Assembly: GCF_003385845.1 (NCBI RefSeq)
Contig: NZ_QRDJ01000006.1
Span: 558,001-622,000, forward strand
Reading direction: 5' to 3'
Source of the DNA: Kushneria indalinina DSM 14324
GTDB taxonomy: Bacteria; Pseudomonadota; Gammaproteobacteria; Pseudomonadales; Halomonadaceae
Length of the DNA stretch: 64,000 nucleotides
The number at the start of each line of letters is the position of its first letter. Position 1 is the first letter of the stretch. Below, in pieces: positions 30,576-36,142 of the stretch. The translations under genes were made by a program, and so were the position numbers. A model generated the notes under the pieces. It searched no databases. It was not told where the DNA came from and saw only the letters and a list, made by a program, of their open reading frames with translations.

Positions 30576-32858
30576 ATGAGGTATTTTTTGAAAGAGAGCC
30601 TGCAGACCTGGTGCGCCCAGCGTCTGGCCAGCCATGGCTGGCATCGTGAGGTGCCGCCCGAGCGTGCCATGAACGTTTCTCGTGCCCTTGCCCGTCTGCG
30701 CAGCATGGACATCGAGGAGCCTGGTGCTCTGGGGTGGCAGATGGTAGGGCGCCTTGATCAGGCGCAGCGTGATGAAGCCGTCACCATGCTGGTGCTGGCC
30801 TTCAATGCCCAGTGGCTGGATGAGCAGGCGCTCGCGCAGTGGCTGACCTGGCTTCAGGAGGAGACCACGCAGCCCCCGTGGCCCGATCAGGGCGACAGTG
30901 CGATATGGCGTGCCCGCGCCCCCTTTGCCCCCATCATGATCGACAGCATGGAAGCGGCCGGCCTTGAGCGCGAACGCACCGGGCATTTCCTGCGCGAGGT
31001 CTGGTCCATTCATGAACGTGATGAGCTGATACGCATGCTGCTCTGGTTGGCCGGGCAGGGGCATCGTCACGGCTGGGAGCTGGATCATCTGCGCTTTGAA
31101 GCCATGACCCGGCCGCAACGGTTGCAGTGGCACGCGCGCATGGCGCCCCAGGCGACCTATGCCGCCACGCTCGAGGCGCTGGTGGTACAGGGGCAGCCCC
31201 GAGATGTGGCCGCGTGGGACTGGTTGCGTCTGGTGGATCTGGCCTGGGCCGGCATGACCATGGGCTGGCTTGATCAGGACGAAGCCAGAGGCTTTGCCGC
31301 GCACGGGGTGGATCTTCTGACGCGTCGTTATGACAGCTGGCATGACGTGGCACTGGCCTGGCAGCGTGGCCGCAGTCTGCATGAAGGGCTCGATCTACTG
31401 GAGAACTTCACGGTGGAATGGCAGCTGCTGCTTGAAGCGCCCGATAGTCCCTGGCAACGGCCGCTCCATGAGCTGCTTGACGATGATCTTCGTGAACGTT
31501 CGCGAGCGATGATCCGCAGGCTGCGCAGCAGTGCGCGTCACTGGGCACTGGCAGTGGCCTCCATTAGGGAGTCGGATCTGCTGTATCGTCAGTACGCGGC
31601 GCCCGGTGTGAGCGATGATCAGCGCCGGCTGAGTCGGGAATACCTCAACGAGATTCTGGACTGGCGACCGGAAGAGGGCGTGGCAGGGCTGTCACGCTTC
31701 TGGATGCCGGGGCAGGTACACCATCTCAATCAGCTGGCCTCCGATGCCCTGCATGGCAGGCTGCCGGACACGGCAACCCCCTTTGGTACCCCATCACCCG
31801 AGCTTTTGGCCTACCGTCAGCAGTTGGCAGGCTGCGCGTCGGTCTCTGCCACGATCATCATGGCGGAAAAATATGCCTTTCATCTTCAGATGTTTGAAAG
31901 TGCCGACCATGGTGAAGCCGAGCTGCTGGAGCGCTATTACACCCGGCTTGCTGCCACGCTGAGCCGTCACTACCTCAGTGTGGATGCCATGCTGGAGGCC
32001 TGGGTGTGGTGGGAGCAGACCCTGCCTGAAGACAGCACGCAGGAGTCGCTGGTCGAGGATATTGAATGGCATCGCCATGACCCCGGCAGCCCCTTTCACT
32101 GGCTGACCGCGCCTGCCGGCTTTCATCAGGAGCCGGGTAAACGGCCGTCGTTGTCACGCTTCACGGCGCTCTCGCTCTCGGGGCCGCTCAATGCCGCGCT
32201 CTGGGGCGAGCCTGAAAGACAGTATGGTGTACAGGCCACCGAAATCCGTGAATGGCTGGACAGTCACTATGGCCTTGGGGGTACGGCGCAGCTGATTCGT
32301 TTTCTCGATTTTCTGGTCGAGGCGGGCGATCGTCAGGAGTATCTGATCAACTACGGTCCCTATACGCTCAATCAGCGACGCCTGCAGCAGGAAATTGCCG
32401 TGCTTGAGTCTGCCAATTGCAGTGAAGATGAAAGGGTGCATCTGGAAAGGTTGCGCCGCGTGCTGAAAAACGATCATCAATGCAACGATATCGATATGGC
32501 CGCATGGGACATCGCGCAGCTGGTGGATCTTGCTGCTGCCGGGCGGCAGCTGGGCTGGTTAAGTGCAGAAAGGCTTCACCACTATCTGGATCAGGCGCTG
32601 GCGCTGGCCTCCCGCCATTACAGTGACTGGTGGGCCTACGGCAAGGGGATGCTGGCAGGCTACAGCTTTTTCATGGTCGACACCCCCGAGCGTGAACACT
32701 TTCTGGCGGAATTCAATCAGGCCATGATGGCCTGGCAGACAGGGCTGCCGCCGCTGGCCGGCAGCTGGGCCAGCCTTGATTTTCCCGGTGCTCAGCCGCG
32801 ACGCTGGCCACCATTGCACGCCGATACGCTACCGGGAGATGCGCGTGTTCTGCATTAA
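30576..32858 (+). CDS. large protein with two DUF1266 domains
   Basis: A 760-residue cytoplasmic protein, rich in Trp, Leu and His, with no signal or membrane span. Two copies of a DUF1266-like unit are visible. The first core is AAWDWLRLVDLAWAGMTMGW followed by RRYDSWHDVALAWQRGRSLH (about residues 120-290). The second is AAWDIAQLVDLAAAGRQLGW followed by SRHYSDWWAYGKGMLAGYSF (about 560-715). A divergent stretch near 430-490 with SRHYLSVDAMLEAWVWWEQ may be a third, degraded copy. DUF1266 proteins such as E. coli YbeU/YbeR have no known function. The ATG at 30576 has a weak ribosome site. The single-unit family is usually 230-300 residues, so this is a long tandem version. Confidence 0.7.
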   Translation: MRYFLKESLQTWCAQRLASHGWHREVPPERAMNVSRALARLRSMDIEEPGALGWQMVGRLDQAQRDEAVTMLVLAFNAQWLDEQALAQWLTWLQEETTQPPWPDQGDSAIWRARAPFAPIMIDSMEAAGLERERTGHFLREVWSIHERDELIRMLLWLAGQGHRHGWELDHLRFEAMTRPQRLQWHARMAPQATYAATLEALVVQGQPRDVAAWDWLRLVDLAWAGMTMGWLDQDEARGFAAHGVDLLTRRYDSWHDVALAWQRGRSLHEGLDLLENFTVEWQLLLEAPDSPWQRPLHELLDDDLRERSRAMIRRLRSSARHWALAVASIRESDLLYRQYAAPGVSDDQRRLSREYLNEILDWRPEEGVAGLSRFWMPGQVHHLNQLASDALHGRLPDTATPFGTPSPELLAYRQQLAGCASVSATIIMAEKYAFHLQMFESADHGEAELLERYYTRLAATLSRHYLSVDAMLEAWVWWEQTLPEDSTQESLVEDIEWHRHDPGSPFHWLTAPAGFHQEPGKRPSLSRFTALSLSGPLNAALWGEPERQYGVQATEIREWLDSHYGLGGTAQLIRFLDFLVEAGDRQEYLINYGPYTLNQRRLQQEIAVLESANCSEDERVHLERLRRVLKNDHQCNDIDMAAWDIAQLVDLAAAGRQLGWLSAERLHHYLDQALALASRHYSDWWAYGKGMLAGYSFFMVDTPEREHFLAEFNQAMMAWQTGLPPLAGSWASLDFPGAQPRRWPPLHADTLPGDARVLH

Positions 32859-33079: not shown

Positions 33080-33676
33080 ATGCGGCGAATAATCATGGGT
33101 AGTCTGGTGTGTCTTGCTTTAGGTGGGTGTGCTGCTTCTCAGCCCGGTTCTCAGGATGGTGCAAAGGATATGGCCATGCTTTCGCTTTCGACGGCCAAGG
33201 CGTCGAAAGCGAAAGCAGGAAAGAATGCCCGTCAGACGTCCCGGTATGACTATACCTCGCCTGAGGATGCCTATCCGGTCGATATAGAGGCCGCGTTGAT
33301 GGCTGAATATGATACCTGGCAGGGCACACCCTACAAGTTCGGGGGCGAGAGCAGCAGCGGTATCGACTGTTCGGCACTGGTACAACAGGTCTTTCGTGAC
33401 AGCTTCAACTTTGACCTGCCGCGAACTACCGCCGGACAGGTACTGACCGGTCGGCGCATTGAAAAAACGGCACTCAAGGCCGGTGACCTGGTCTTTTTCA
33501 GGCCATGGCGCGGTGACCGGCATGTCGGCATCTACGTCGGTGAGGGCCGCTTCATGCATGCTTCAAGCTCCAGAGGCGTCAAGATTTCCCGACTGGACAA
33601 TCCCTACTGGAGCCGACATTACTGGCAGTCCCGCCGCACGCTGGATACCAATGCGCTTGCCATGCGCACTCCCTGA
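33080..33676 (+). CDS. NlpC/P60 lipoprotein endopeptidase (Spr/MepS-like)
   Basis: A 198-residue lipoprotein. The signal peptide MRRIIMGSLVCLALGGCAAS has a lipobox ending at Cys17. The C-terminal NlpC/P60 domain shows GTPYKFGGESSSGIDCSALV (catalytic Cys), GDLVFFRPWRGDRHVGIYVG (catalytic His) and GRFMHASSSRGVKISRLD (third polar residue). It is expected to cut peptidoglycan stem-peptide cross-links from the outer or inner membrane, like MepS/NlpC. A short Lys/Ala/Ser-rich linker (residues 35-55) joins the lipid anchor to the domain. Single gene, closed by a strong terminator. Confidence 0.92.
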   Translation: MRRIIMGSLVCLALGGCAASQPGSQDGAKDMAMLSLSTAKASKAKAGKNARQTSRYDYTSPEDAYPVDIEAALMAEYDTWQGTPYKFGGESSSGIDCSALVQQVFRDSFNFDLPRTTAGQVLTGRRIEKTALKAGDLVFFRPWRGDRHVGIYVGEGRFMHASSSRGVKISRLDNPYWSRHYWQSRRTLDTNALAMRTP

Positions 33677-33690
33677 ACACCTGAAGCATC

Positions 33691-33726
33691 AAAACGGGCC
33701 GATATTGTGAAATATCGGCCCGTTTT
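33691..33726 (+). terminator. terminator after NlpC/P60 gene
   Basis: A long stem: AAAACGGGCCGATATT pairs with AATATCGGCCCGTTTT (33691-33726). The A- and T-rich ends allow termination in both directions. Confidence 0.9.
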
Positions 33727-33873
33727 GTTTTCCCACCCTGTTGACCATCCGGATGTGACTGCGATGGCAGGCCACTATTCCTCCACAGCGTTTTTTATAC
33801 CGTTACCTTCTGTCCCACCAGTTTGAAGCCACCTGATCCTGTTCTGCCTCGATACGCCATGACTTCTCATTTC

Positions 33874-33904
33874 TTGTACAAGATATATAAACATATTGTA
33901 CAAT
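33874..33904 (+). promoter_or_regulatory. twin TTGTACAA operators over a promoter
   Basis: TTGTACAA occurs at 33874-33881 and again at 33896-33903, 22 bp centre to centre (two helical turns). The first extends to the perfect 12-mer TCTTGTACAAGA and the second to the perfect 10-mer ATTGTACAAT. They overlap a plausible promoter with -35 TGTACA (33876-33881), 17-bp spacer and -10 TACAAT (33899-33904). The next gene starts at 33965. Confidence 0.6.
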
Positions 33905-33964
33905 CGCAAAGGCGTACGGCTGGCAGGATGCCGGCCTGAATATTGACTTCAGGACTTTTCAGGT

Positions 33965-34684
33965 ATGGATACCCAACGCTCAAGCTCTTCGGCATGCCCC
34001 GCTGAAGCGATACCTCTCTCTTTGGCAGCCTCCTCACTCGACCGCGGATCGCCGTCTCGATCGGCATGCGAGCTGTTGAACGGTCATGGTATATCGCTGC
34101 TGAATATGGCCCCCCATCATCGTGTCCTGGACATGTACGGCTCGGGTCAGCAGCGCATGCATCTGATCTCCGGTGCGCTGGATGAACGAGGCGAGCTGGT
34201 CGCCAACATCATGGGGGCACTGTCACTGGAAAGCGTTGCGCTTCGCCAGACGCCCCATAATGTCACCATGACACGTCTTGATGATGATCGACTGTCTCCG
34301 GAGGACGTGGGCTCCTTTGATCGCGTGCTGCTCGATATTCCTGCACTGATCGGGCGGCATCTGTCGGCGCGGGAACGCTCCGAGCGGCTGGTGTCACTGC
34401 TTCTTCGCGCCATCAGGCTGTGCCGTGATGGCGGCCGCGTGGTGTATATGACGCATGGTCATCTGGTGCAGGACAACGAAATGGTGATCGATCAGGTGAT
34501 TAATGATGCCCACAAGGGCATTGCCCTGGGCCGCATTGATCTACCCGGGGTTAGCGGTCGTCCCGGCAATACCTGCTGTGGGGGGCAACAGCTTGATCCC
34601 AGGATTGCCAGAGCCCTGCATGTGACGGACAGCACGGGCAGCGAGGACCGTTTTCTGGCCGTGTTCGAGTGTAGGCATTCGTAA
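33965..34684 (+). CDS. degenerate Nol1/Nop2/Sun (RsmB/RsmF-like) methyltransferase homolog
   Basis: A 239-residue protein that follows the catalytic core of bacterial RNA m5C methyltransferases in order. HHRVLDMYGSGQQRMHLIS stands where the SAM loop (AAPGGKT) should be, GELVANIMGALSLESVALRQ follows, then FDRVLLDIPALIG (residues 119-130) where the family has DAPCSG, CRDGGRVVYMTHGHLVQDNE (153-171) where it has the STCT motif, and an end like the family's (SEDRFLAVFEC). Both catalytic cysteines and most of the SAM-binding glycine loop are missing although the frame is intact, so it is probably not a methyltransferase. There is no N-terminal NusB or RNA-binding domain. It could be an RNA-binding or regulatory remnant. 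The gene sits behind two palindromic operators. The homology is my own motif reading. Confidence 0.6.
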   Translation: MDTQRSSSSACPAEAIPLSLAASSLDRGSPSRSACELLNGHGISLLNMAPHHRVLDMYGSGQQRMHLISGALDERGELVANIMGALSLESVALRQTPHNVTMTRLDDDRLSPEDVGSFDRVLLDIPALIGRHLSARERSERLVSLLLRAIRLCRDGGRVVYMTHGHLVQDNEMVIDQVINDAHKGIALGRIDLPGVSGRPGNTCCGGQQLDPRIARALHVTDSTGSEDRFLAVFECRHS

Positions 34685-34738: not shown

Positions 34739-35440
34739 ATGATGCCTCTTTTGCCTCCGGTACCGAGGATGTCTCACTTGACCCTTCGTCTGCGTCGTTC
34801 ATGCCAGACCAGCATGGCATGGATGGCGCATCAGCTTGTCACCTGGCGTATCTCGCCGGCAGGACTCGCACTTACCGCCATCGTGCTTGCCGTTGCCACT
34901 GCGCCGTTGCTATATGCACAACAGTGTCTGATGGCGGCGCTGGCTGTACTGTTGTACCGCCTGATGAGCGTGCTGTCGGGCTGGGTATCAAGGGCCCTGG
35001 GCCACCTTGACGCCAGGCAGCGCTACCTGCGTCCCTTCATGGAAATCGTTCTGATCGTGTCGGTCATGGCTGGGCTTTCGCTCTACTCGCCCGAGCGGCT
35101 TTTCTGGCCTGCGCTGACCCTGGTCATTGTCCTGCTCGTCTTTGATCTGGAAAGACGGCTGGTGGTGCTGCTTCAGGAAGTGCAAAGCATTGTCACCCGG
35201 ACAGGGGCGCCCGAGCGTATCATCAATATTGTCACGGGAAGTGTAGGGCGCACTCTGCTATTGATGGCCGCCTGCTACTGGCCACAGAGCTTTTTCTGGA
35301 GCGGGTTCGCCTTTGCTGGCCTTTGTCTGGGGATACTGGCCTGGCGGCTGGTGACCAACTATCGACAGCTGGGCATGGCCCCGGAAATGAGTGCGTCAGG
35401 GGCGCCTACCGAGCAAACCGACCCGGATAGCAGCATCTGA
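34739..35440 (+). CDS. hypothetical polytopic membrane protein
   Basis: A protein of about 233 residues with a basic N-terminus and five or six hydrophobic segments (for example ISPAGLALTAIVLAVATAPL, FMEIVLIVSVMAGLSLY, LFWPALTLVIVLLVFDLE). The order of helices and the PERIINIVTGSVGRTLLL region loosely recall CDP-alcohol phosphatidyltransferases, but the D-x2-D-G-x2-A-R...D-x3-D active-site signature is absent, so no enzyme function is claimed. The start is uncertain (34739, 34742 or 34769; none has a good ribosome site). It follows the pseudo-methyltransferase by 54 bp and may be co-transcribed with it. It converges on the SlyD-like gene. Confidence 0.6.
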   Translation: MMPLLPPVPRMSHLTLRLRRSCQTSMAWMAHQLVTWRISPAGLALTAIVLAVATAPLLYAQQCLMAALAVLLYRLMSVLSGWVSRALGHLDARQRYLRPFMEIVLIVSVMAGLSLYSPERLFWPALTLVIVLLVFDLERRLVVLLQEVQSIVTRTGAPERIINIVTGSVGRTLLLMAACYWPQSFFWSGFAFAGLCLGILAWRLVTNYRQLGMAPEMSASGAPTEQTDPDSSI

Positions 35441-35505: not shown

Positions 35506-35988
35506 TCAGTGCTCATGACCGCCTTCACCGTGTACATGGCCGTGCTCGAGTTCTTCGGCACTGGCTTCGCGTACGGATTCGACGCTGACGTCAAAGTTCA
35601 GGGTTTCGCCGGCCAGCGGATGGTTGCCGTCAACGGTAACCGTATCACCTTCGAGCTTGGTGACGGTGACCAGCAGCGGGCCGCCTTCGGTCTGCGCCTG
35701 AAACTGCATGCCGGGCTGGATGTCTTCTACGCCCTGGAAGGCATCGCGCGGTACTTCCTGCACCAGAGAGGGCTGGACTTCGCCGTAGCCTTCGCCGGGT
35801 TCAACGCGCGCCTGAAGGGTGTCACCTGTCGTCTTGCCTGACAGTTCCTTCTCCAGTCCGGGAATGATGTTGCCGGAACCGTGCAGATAGGAAAGCGGAT
35901 CACGACCTTCAGAGCTGTCGAGTACTTCACCGGAATCGTTTTTCAGAGTGTAGTGAAACGATACGACTGTGTTCTCTGCGATCTGCAT
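35506..35988 (-). CDS. FKBP-type peptidyl-prolyl isomerase, SlyD-like
   Basis: A 160-residue chaperone/isomerase. The FKBP core begins MQIAENTVVSFHYTLKNDSG, with DPLSYLHGSGNIIPGLEKEL as the active-site strand. An inserted IF domain (about residues 70-130) carries the chaperone activity in SlyD proteins, and NHPLAGETLNFDVSVESVRE closes the fold. The tail is His-rich (EHGHVHGEGGHEH), shorter than in E. coli SlyD but suited to nickel binding for hydrogenase or urease maturation. The start at 35988 follows AGGA; an upstream ATG lacks one. Cytoplasmic. Confidence 0.92.
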   Translation of the reverse strand: MQIAENTVVSFHYTLKNDSGEVLDSSEGRDPLSYLHGSGNIIPGLEKELSGKTTGDTLQARVEPGEGYGEVQPSLVQEVPRDAFQGVEDIQPGMQFQAQTEGGPLLVTVTKLEGDTVTVDGNHPLAGETLNFDVSVESVREASAEELEHGHVHGEGGHEH

Positions 35989-36142
35989 GATAAGGGTCCT
36001 TTGCGTCGGTACGTGTTGGTTGCTCTCAAACTGTCGGGGCATCGTCTCCATTAATGCGTGCCGACGTGCTGACTCATGAAGATGGCGACGGCCATATATT
36101 TTTCAACCCCGGCCAGGCCATCAATCGCGCTTTTTTTACGAT

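Follow-up and report, generated by a model that had tools for sequence, protein, structure and literature searches.

What is a bacterium doing with an RNA methyltransferase domain that has lost its catalytic residues: carrying a decaying gene, or keeping the domain for other work? The question is raised by a gene of Kushneria indalinina DSM 14324, found at 33965..34684 (+ strand) of the 64,000-nucleotide stretch of contig NZ_QRDJ01000006.1 analysed here, which is referred to as the window. A first-pass annotation, made from the sequence alone, had described an undamaged RsmB/RsmF-like gene without both catalytic cysteines and without the SAM loop, preceded by an elaborate promoter and kept as a pseudoenzyme for another job, such as RNA binding or regulation.

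Family membership of the 239-aa protein

The frame is undamaged as first described, being open from the ATG at 33965 to the stop codon ending at 34684, and encodes 239 aa. The protein matches PF01189 with 35.4 bits (E 1.1e-8, Pfam cut-off 27), and the same family is matched by 8/8 orthologs at E <= 0.01. Against seven gammaproteobacterial RsmF/NSUN-type enzymes, residues 41-235 align with strong support (hhalign 99.8%, E 6e-30, 31% identity). A profile of the eight orthologs, searched against solved chains, recovers NOP2, NSUN2 and a NOL1/NOP2/sun family protein, and yebU weakly (20 sequences with E up to 0.1, the best at 1.1e-9). The protein falls far under the cut-offs of all eight NCBIfam models listed, the best being the RsmF/NSUN-type model TIGR00446 nop2p with 32.7 bits against a cut-off of 210.45. 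Motif order and the C-terminal end of the catalytic domain are common to RsmF/NSUN-type enzymes and the 239-aa protein; the enzymes, however, have additional parts flanking the catalytic domain on both sides, and the Kushneria protein has neither. As the AlphaFold2 model from a five-sequence alignment has a mean pLDDT of only 34.1 and is unusable, the assignment of an NSUN-type (Rossmann-type) fold rests on sequence profiles, which agree with one another. A different fold would count against the annotation; profile-profile comparison points instead to NSUN/RsmF-type enzymes.

Loss of key active-site residues

Alignment with intact homologs places the remains of the catalytic motifs in the annotated order and at the annotated positions. 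Motif I, the SAM-binding loop that reads AAPGGKT in intact relatives, is degenerate as GSGQQRM (codons 59-65, 34139..34159, + strand). Motif IV is DIPALI (codons 124-129, 34334..34351, + strand), with A127 at the cysteine position and about 15 residues missing downstream, and motif VI is MTHG (codons 162-165, 34448..34459, + strand), with H164 in place of the nucleophilic cysteine (TC). The motif II acid aligns with I82, in a region that reads ANI in 8/8 orthologs. The AAPGGKT loop and the motif II acid have roles in SAM binding. Thus the motif VI cysteine, the motif IV cysteine (DxPC) and the loop with the motif II acid, which mark an active NSUN/RsmF m5C enzyme, are all absent. The roles of the two cysteines in NSUN catalysis are known (PMC6409601). 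In the reading favoured here, m5C methyl transfer is lost in this protein, and SAM binding very probably as well. The active-site loss is not total, as D124 (8/8 orthologs) and the Pro of motif IV are retained.

The same residues are missing in the orthologs, none of which has either cysteine: the motif IV position is Ala in 6/8, Val in 1/8 and Phe in 1/8, and the motif VI position is His in 7/8 and Ser in 1/8. The most divergent ortholog, that of genome G001 (40% identity), has the same losses in another form (DTRF, MTSS). Other stretches are invariant in 8/8, for example GQQLD. Both cysteines are found in all 31 non-Kushneria rows of the phylogenetic tree described below, although for the motif IV cysteine the unbiased count is 19/19, because the frames of the other 12 rows were picked by the motif that contains it.

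Distribution, ancestry and selection

The gene was found in 8/10 Kushneria genomes. Among 201 genomes drawn from the family, these ten included, the same eight match at 1e-6 and none of the 191 others does, so that as far as searched the gene is restricted to the genus Kushneria. A class-wide draw gave matches at 1e-5 in 44 of 369 genomes, two of them Kushneria, and 22 loci were read among the 44. The eight best non-Kushneria matches (65 to 92.7 bits) lie in frames of 464-563 aa that are longer than the Kushneria protein on both sides. Sixteen weak PF01189 rows in the family, the Kushneria gene itself excluded, were considered as further orthologs; the 11 that were inspected read as RlmD-, RlmI-, CobL- and TrmB-like proteins and not as relatives of the gene. 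No match was found in phages, plasmids or viral contigs that would indicate a mobile-element origin.

An intact RsmB, which shares the family PF01189 with the 239-aa protein, is encoded elsewhere in the host genome. Descent from RsmB was rejected: the ortholog profile scores the host RsmB at 2.6 bits and RsmF/NSUN-type frames at up to 90.7 bits, and a tree of 37 rows, rooted at the midpoint, groups the six Kushneria sequences together (100/99). Their branch, with a length of 1.34, attaches close to the RsmF/NSUN-type rows, and RsmB lies in a separate clade. This tree omits L093, L109 and L112, for which the scripted frame was wrong, and L122 stands in for L093. Thus the RsmF half of the RsmB/RsmF-like description holds, with the best-scoring relatives on the RsmF/NSUN side, and the RsmB half does not. 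Judging from profile scores and tree topology, the gene most likely branched off, in truncated form, from the RsmF/NSUN side.

The gene is clearly under purifying selection. No internal stop is present in 8/8 orthologs, and the 21 pairs among the seven close orthologs have Nei-Gojobori dN/dS values of 0.06-0.16 over the core (residues 44-192). The seven pairs with G001 give 0.19-0.44, at high dS (1.27-3.05). The N-terminal 43 residues are less constrained than the core. As both cysteines are absent in 8/8 orthologs, the gene was found only in Kushneria and core dN/dS is low, this is a conserved pseudoenzyme and not a decaying gene or a single degenerate case. The annotated role, a pseudoenzyme kept for another job, stands on this evidence of selection.

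The locus and the neighbouring gene

The gene lies between an NlpC/P60 lipoprotein gene upstream (33080..33676, + strand, PF00877 1.9e-32) and an FKBP-type, SlyD-like gene downstream (35506..36051, - strand, PF00254 1.3e-10), both of which serve as synteny markers. The NlpC/P60 gene is present in 25 genomes, and the interval was read in eight that have no pseudo-methyltransferase gene. Its content varies: the flanks are about 190 bases apart in G012, and just one small frame separates them in G024. In G018 and G016 the NlpC/P60 gene is followed by a CDP-alcohol phosphatidyltransferase gene, which in G018 adjoins the FKBP gene. An MFS gene accompanies the CDP-alcohol phosphatidyltransferase gene in G006 and G008. 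By eye, the interval holds an MFS gene in G010 and a LysR-type gene in G015. Most simply, the pseudo-methyltransferase gene is a newcomer in the NlpC/P60-SlyD interval. Further upstream, 30576-32858 (+ strand) encodes a 760-aa DUF1266 protein, and by eye a similar frame adjoins the NlpC/P60 gene of G018 and of G024. After the NlpC/P60 gene, an inverted repeat with perfectly matching 17-nt arms, 4 nt apart (33690-33727), is followed by T-rich DNA and is kept in the orthologs, with compensating changes by eye. It is likely a terminator ahead of the pseudo-methyltransferase gene; the terminator scan did not report it.

The next gene downstream (34739..35440, + strand; most orthologs start at Met 11, position 34769) has no Pfam match itself. 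Its relationship is seen with the phosphatidyltransferase homologs of the same interval in G018, G006, G016 and G008, all four of which match PF01066 (hhalign 99.1%, E 4.3e-19; best BLAST 5e-21). The aspartates of the motif DxxDGxxAR...GxxxDxxxD, which hold the catalytic metals in CDP-alcohol phosphatidyltransferases (PMC6506517), are replaced by Ser, Ser, Arg and Glu, identically in the 7/7 Kushneria with the degenerate form. The G018 and G006 homologs have 4/4 motif aspartates. Those of G016 and G008 have Glu at the third and fourth positions, respectively, suggesting that the motif was already loose in this phosphatidyltransferase branch. The neighbour, a membrane-type protein, is thus probably a second pseudoenzyme.

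The degenerate neighbour occurs in 7/10 Kushneria genomes, always beside the pseudo-methyltransferase gene and co-oriented with it (7/7). Its dN/dS is 0.15-0.32 over the first 205 codons. In G005 the frame is open for 232 aa, and the one TGA within the match is the gene's own stop, overrun by the match. In G001 the pseudo-methyltransferase is present but nothing matches the neighbour, an argument against an obligate pair; G006 and G008 have a homolog of the neighbour without the pseudo-methyltransferase.

Probable promoter region and mRNA leader

Upstream of the gene, a repeat of the form TTGTACAA-N14-TTGTACAAT (33874..33904, + strand) is a likely promoter or operator. Within 33874-33904, two exact TTGTACAA palindromes lie 22 bases apart, about two helical turns. 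The first half, TTGTACAA, is kept in 7/7 orthologs; the second is TTGTAC in 5/7 and TTATAC in 2/7. The repeat has a sigma-70-like match of 9/12, and it may possibly be the operator of some regulator. A degenerate 31-base pattern, allowing up to three mismatches, finds 33874-33904 as the only site in the genome. A genome search for TTGTACAA pairs with a spacer of 15-30 gave no matches, the local spacer of 14 falling outside that range. The elaborate promoter of the first-pass annotation thus resolves into the TTGTACAA-N14-TTGTACAA repeat and, after it, a structured mRNA leader.

This leader holds three candidate GGA sites, all on the + strand and all invariant in 7/7 orthologs. Pairing and folding predict a hairpin GGCUGGCA-GGA-UGCCGGCC (33918..33936), with GGA in the loop and a candidate CsrA-type site CAGGAUG. 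A CAGGA before the start codon (33950..33954), invariant in 7/7, is the probable Shine-Dalgarno sequence and second GGA site. RNAalifold predicts a start-codon hairpin GGUA-UGGA-UACC (33962..33973) with a third; of its four pairs, three are kept in 7/7 and the fourth in 6/7, with no covariation. Over 113 columns leading up to and covering the start codon, seven orthologs have a mean column identity of 86%; a longer upstream alignment, in which this block is included, has 63%. Two of the seven rows of the longer alignment (L001 and L006) are the same genome, so it has six distinct genomes, and the 86% block and the pairing analysis use seven distinct genomes.

The 8-bp leader hairpin presents CAGGA(U/C)G, and its GGA loop is invariant in 7/7. 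Its pairing is conserved, with 98.2% of 56 cells paired, compared with 9-48% when the columns are slid by 1-3. In L007 the loop is adjoined by A-C instead of the A-U pair, with the CAGGA(U/A/C)G form kept. Two pairs are changed on both sides, in two sequences each (four cells). Among 500 shuffles, three of five covariation measures are reached by 5, but doubly changed pairs are reached by 180 and pair types by 419, and because of these two measures the covariation is suggestive, not strong. Single-sequence folding energies are unremarkable (z -1.83 to +0.77, five sequences). Of 47 CAGGAHG occurrences in the window, a single one has a stem of at least seven pairs closed by C-G. When 53 ORF leaders of the window were scored, in a set whose starts were chosen by script and in which some frames are surely no genes, no leader but this had a GGA stem of at least seven pairs, and it was one of four with at least three GGAs. 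A leader model built from the seven orthologs and run on 13 sources returned those seven and six opposite-strand matches of at most 19.8 bits, and none at the G001 locus. The G001 leader has a hairpin CGGCU-GGA-AGCCG that reads CUGGAAG, unlike CAGGAHG.

The host genome has a csrA gene, and the layout of a CsrA target, a loop GGA with a second GGA at the Shine-Dalgarno sequence, is present in sequence and predicted pairing. CsrB repeats have the form CAGGA(U/A/C)G, and glgC, which is repressed by CsrA, has a GGA in an upstream hairpin and another at the Shine-Dalgarno sequence, an arrangement common to glgC-type leaders and the Kushneria leader (PMC7652899). The Kushneria leader differs in its longer stem, in a triloop if the A-U pair forms, and in that its site is putative. 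CsrA ligands from SELEX mostly have stems of four or fewer pairs (PMC7652899), and the 8-bp stem exceeds most of these. CsrA targets have been modelled in 15 gammaproteobacteria, Halomonas hydrothermalis among them, in a preprint that does not mention Kushneria (PMC12889724). In the proposed mechanism, a CsrA dimer held by CAGGAUG in the leader hairpin would reach the GGA at the Shine-Dalgarno sequence or the start codon and, once there, would block ribosomes as described for glgC. The amount of the pseudo-methyltransferase would then probably be set by CsrA.

What the protein may do

Key residues of the active site are lost, yet the gene is kept in close relatives, mostly beside a second, apparently dead enzyme and behind a conserved folded leader, which makes a non-catalytic job probable. 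We favour, with some confidence, a stand-alone, catalytically dead NSUN/RsmF-type domain that is selected for a non-catalytic role and is probably CsrA-dosed. Such a protein would most likely bind another macromolecule and act in the cytosol as a small scaffold or regulator, with the adjacent membrane pseudoenzyme as a possible partner.

A rival reading, in which the domain still attaches to RNA, ribosomal or other, and serves in assembly or protection without methylating it, as reported for the non-catalytic part of human NOP2, seems unlikely. The family is RNA-modifying, the invariant stretches (GQQLD, 8/8) suggest a retained surface, and there are precedents in NOP2 (PMC9561284) and NSUN4 (PMC6409601). 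However, the flanking regions carried by the eight best-scoring relatives (464-563 aa) are missing, which is somewhat against it. Six orthologs have a net charge of -7 to +1 in the core, whereas 17/21 RsmF/NSUN-type rows are positive; the contrast is weak, since values close to zero are also seen in the best-scoring relatives (L091 -2, L122 +1, L094 0). About equally doubtful is a complex with the adjacent membrane pseudo-phosphatidyltransferase that would regulate an envelope process, with the cytosolic part dosed by CsrA. Adjacency and co-orientation in the 7/7 Kushneria with the degenerate second gene would fit such a complex, as would the dN/dS of the neighbour (0.15-0.32), but the two genes also occur apart, the first without the second in G001 and a homolog of the second without the first in G006 and G008. 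Moreover, a phosphatidyltransferase gene occupies the same interval in other genera, so the adjacency may be chance.

Two further explanations have little to recommend them. That the protein is an active enzyme with changed chemistry, for example through H164, is very improbable: H164 is present in 7/8 orthologs and D124 in 8/8, but G001 has Ser in place of H164, both motif I and the motif II acid are altered (ANI in 8/8), and residues that should follow motif IV are missing. A relic without function, neutral or in slow decay, is at least as hard to accept. Loss of the active-site residues and confinement to a single genus are what such a relic would show, but the open frame in 8/8 and the core dN/dS contradict it, and the leader block is better conserved than the longer alignment around it (86% versus 63%).

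Significance

NSUN proteins with work independent of methylation are known from human NOP2/NSUN1 and NSUN4 (PMC9561284, PMC6409601), and catalytically inactive human NOP2 rescues (PMC9561284). These are active enzymes with a second role, whereas in the Kushneria domain the cysteines are gone and the domain stands alone. Searches of the open-access literature, with limited wording, found no paper on NSUN or bacterial RNA-methyltransferase pseudoenzymes; among the titles listed for RsmF and rRNA methyltransferases with lost catalysis none concerned such a pseudoenzyme, and the one title found for Kushneria with RNA methyltransferase was that of a plant-stress review. Our impression is that little has been written on bacterial relatives of RNA methyltransferases in which the fold is retained and both cysteines and the SAM loop are lost.

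Pseudoenzymes as such are familiar,. What is unusual here is a bacterial RNA m5C methyltransferase domain that is still selected without its cysteines and SAM loop, with a second, probably dead enzyme adjoining it and a leader resembling a CsrA target. It is conceivable, if rather speculative, that the two pseudoenzymes, both under purifying selection, form a genus-level module, a CsrA-dosed regulator that would link RNA-level control to the cell envelope. A selected gene, an intact paralog (RsmB) in the same cell, related genomes without the gene and a tractable leader together make a clean system, suited to asking what an RNA-modification fold does once modification is lost.
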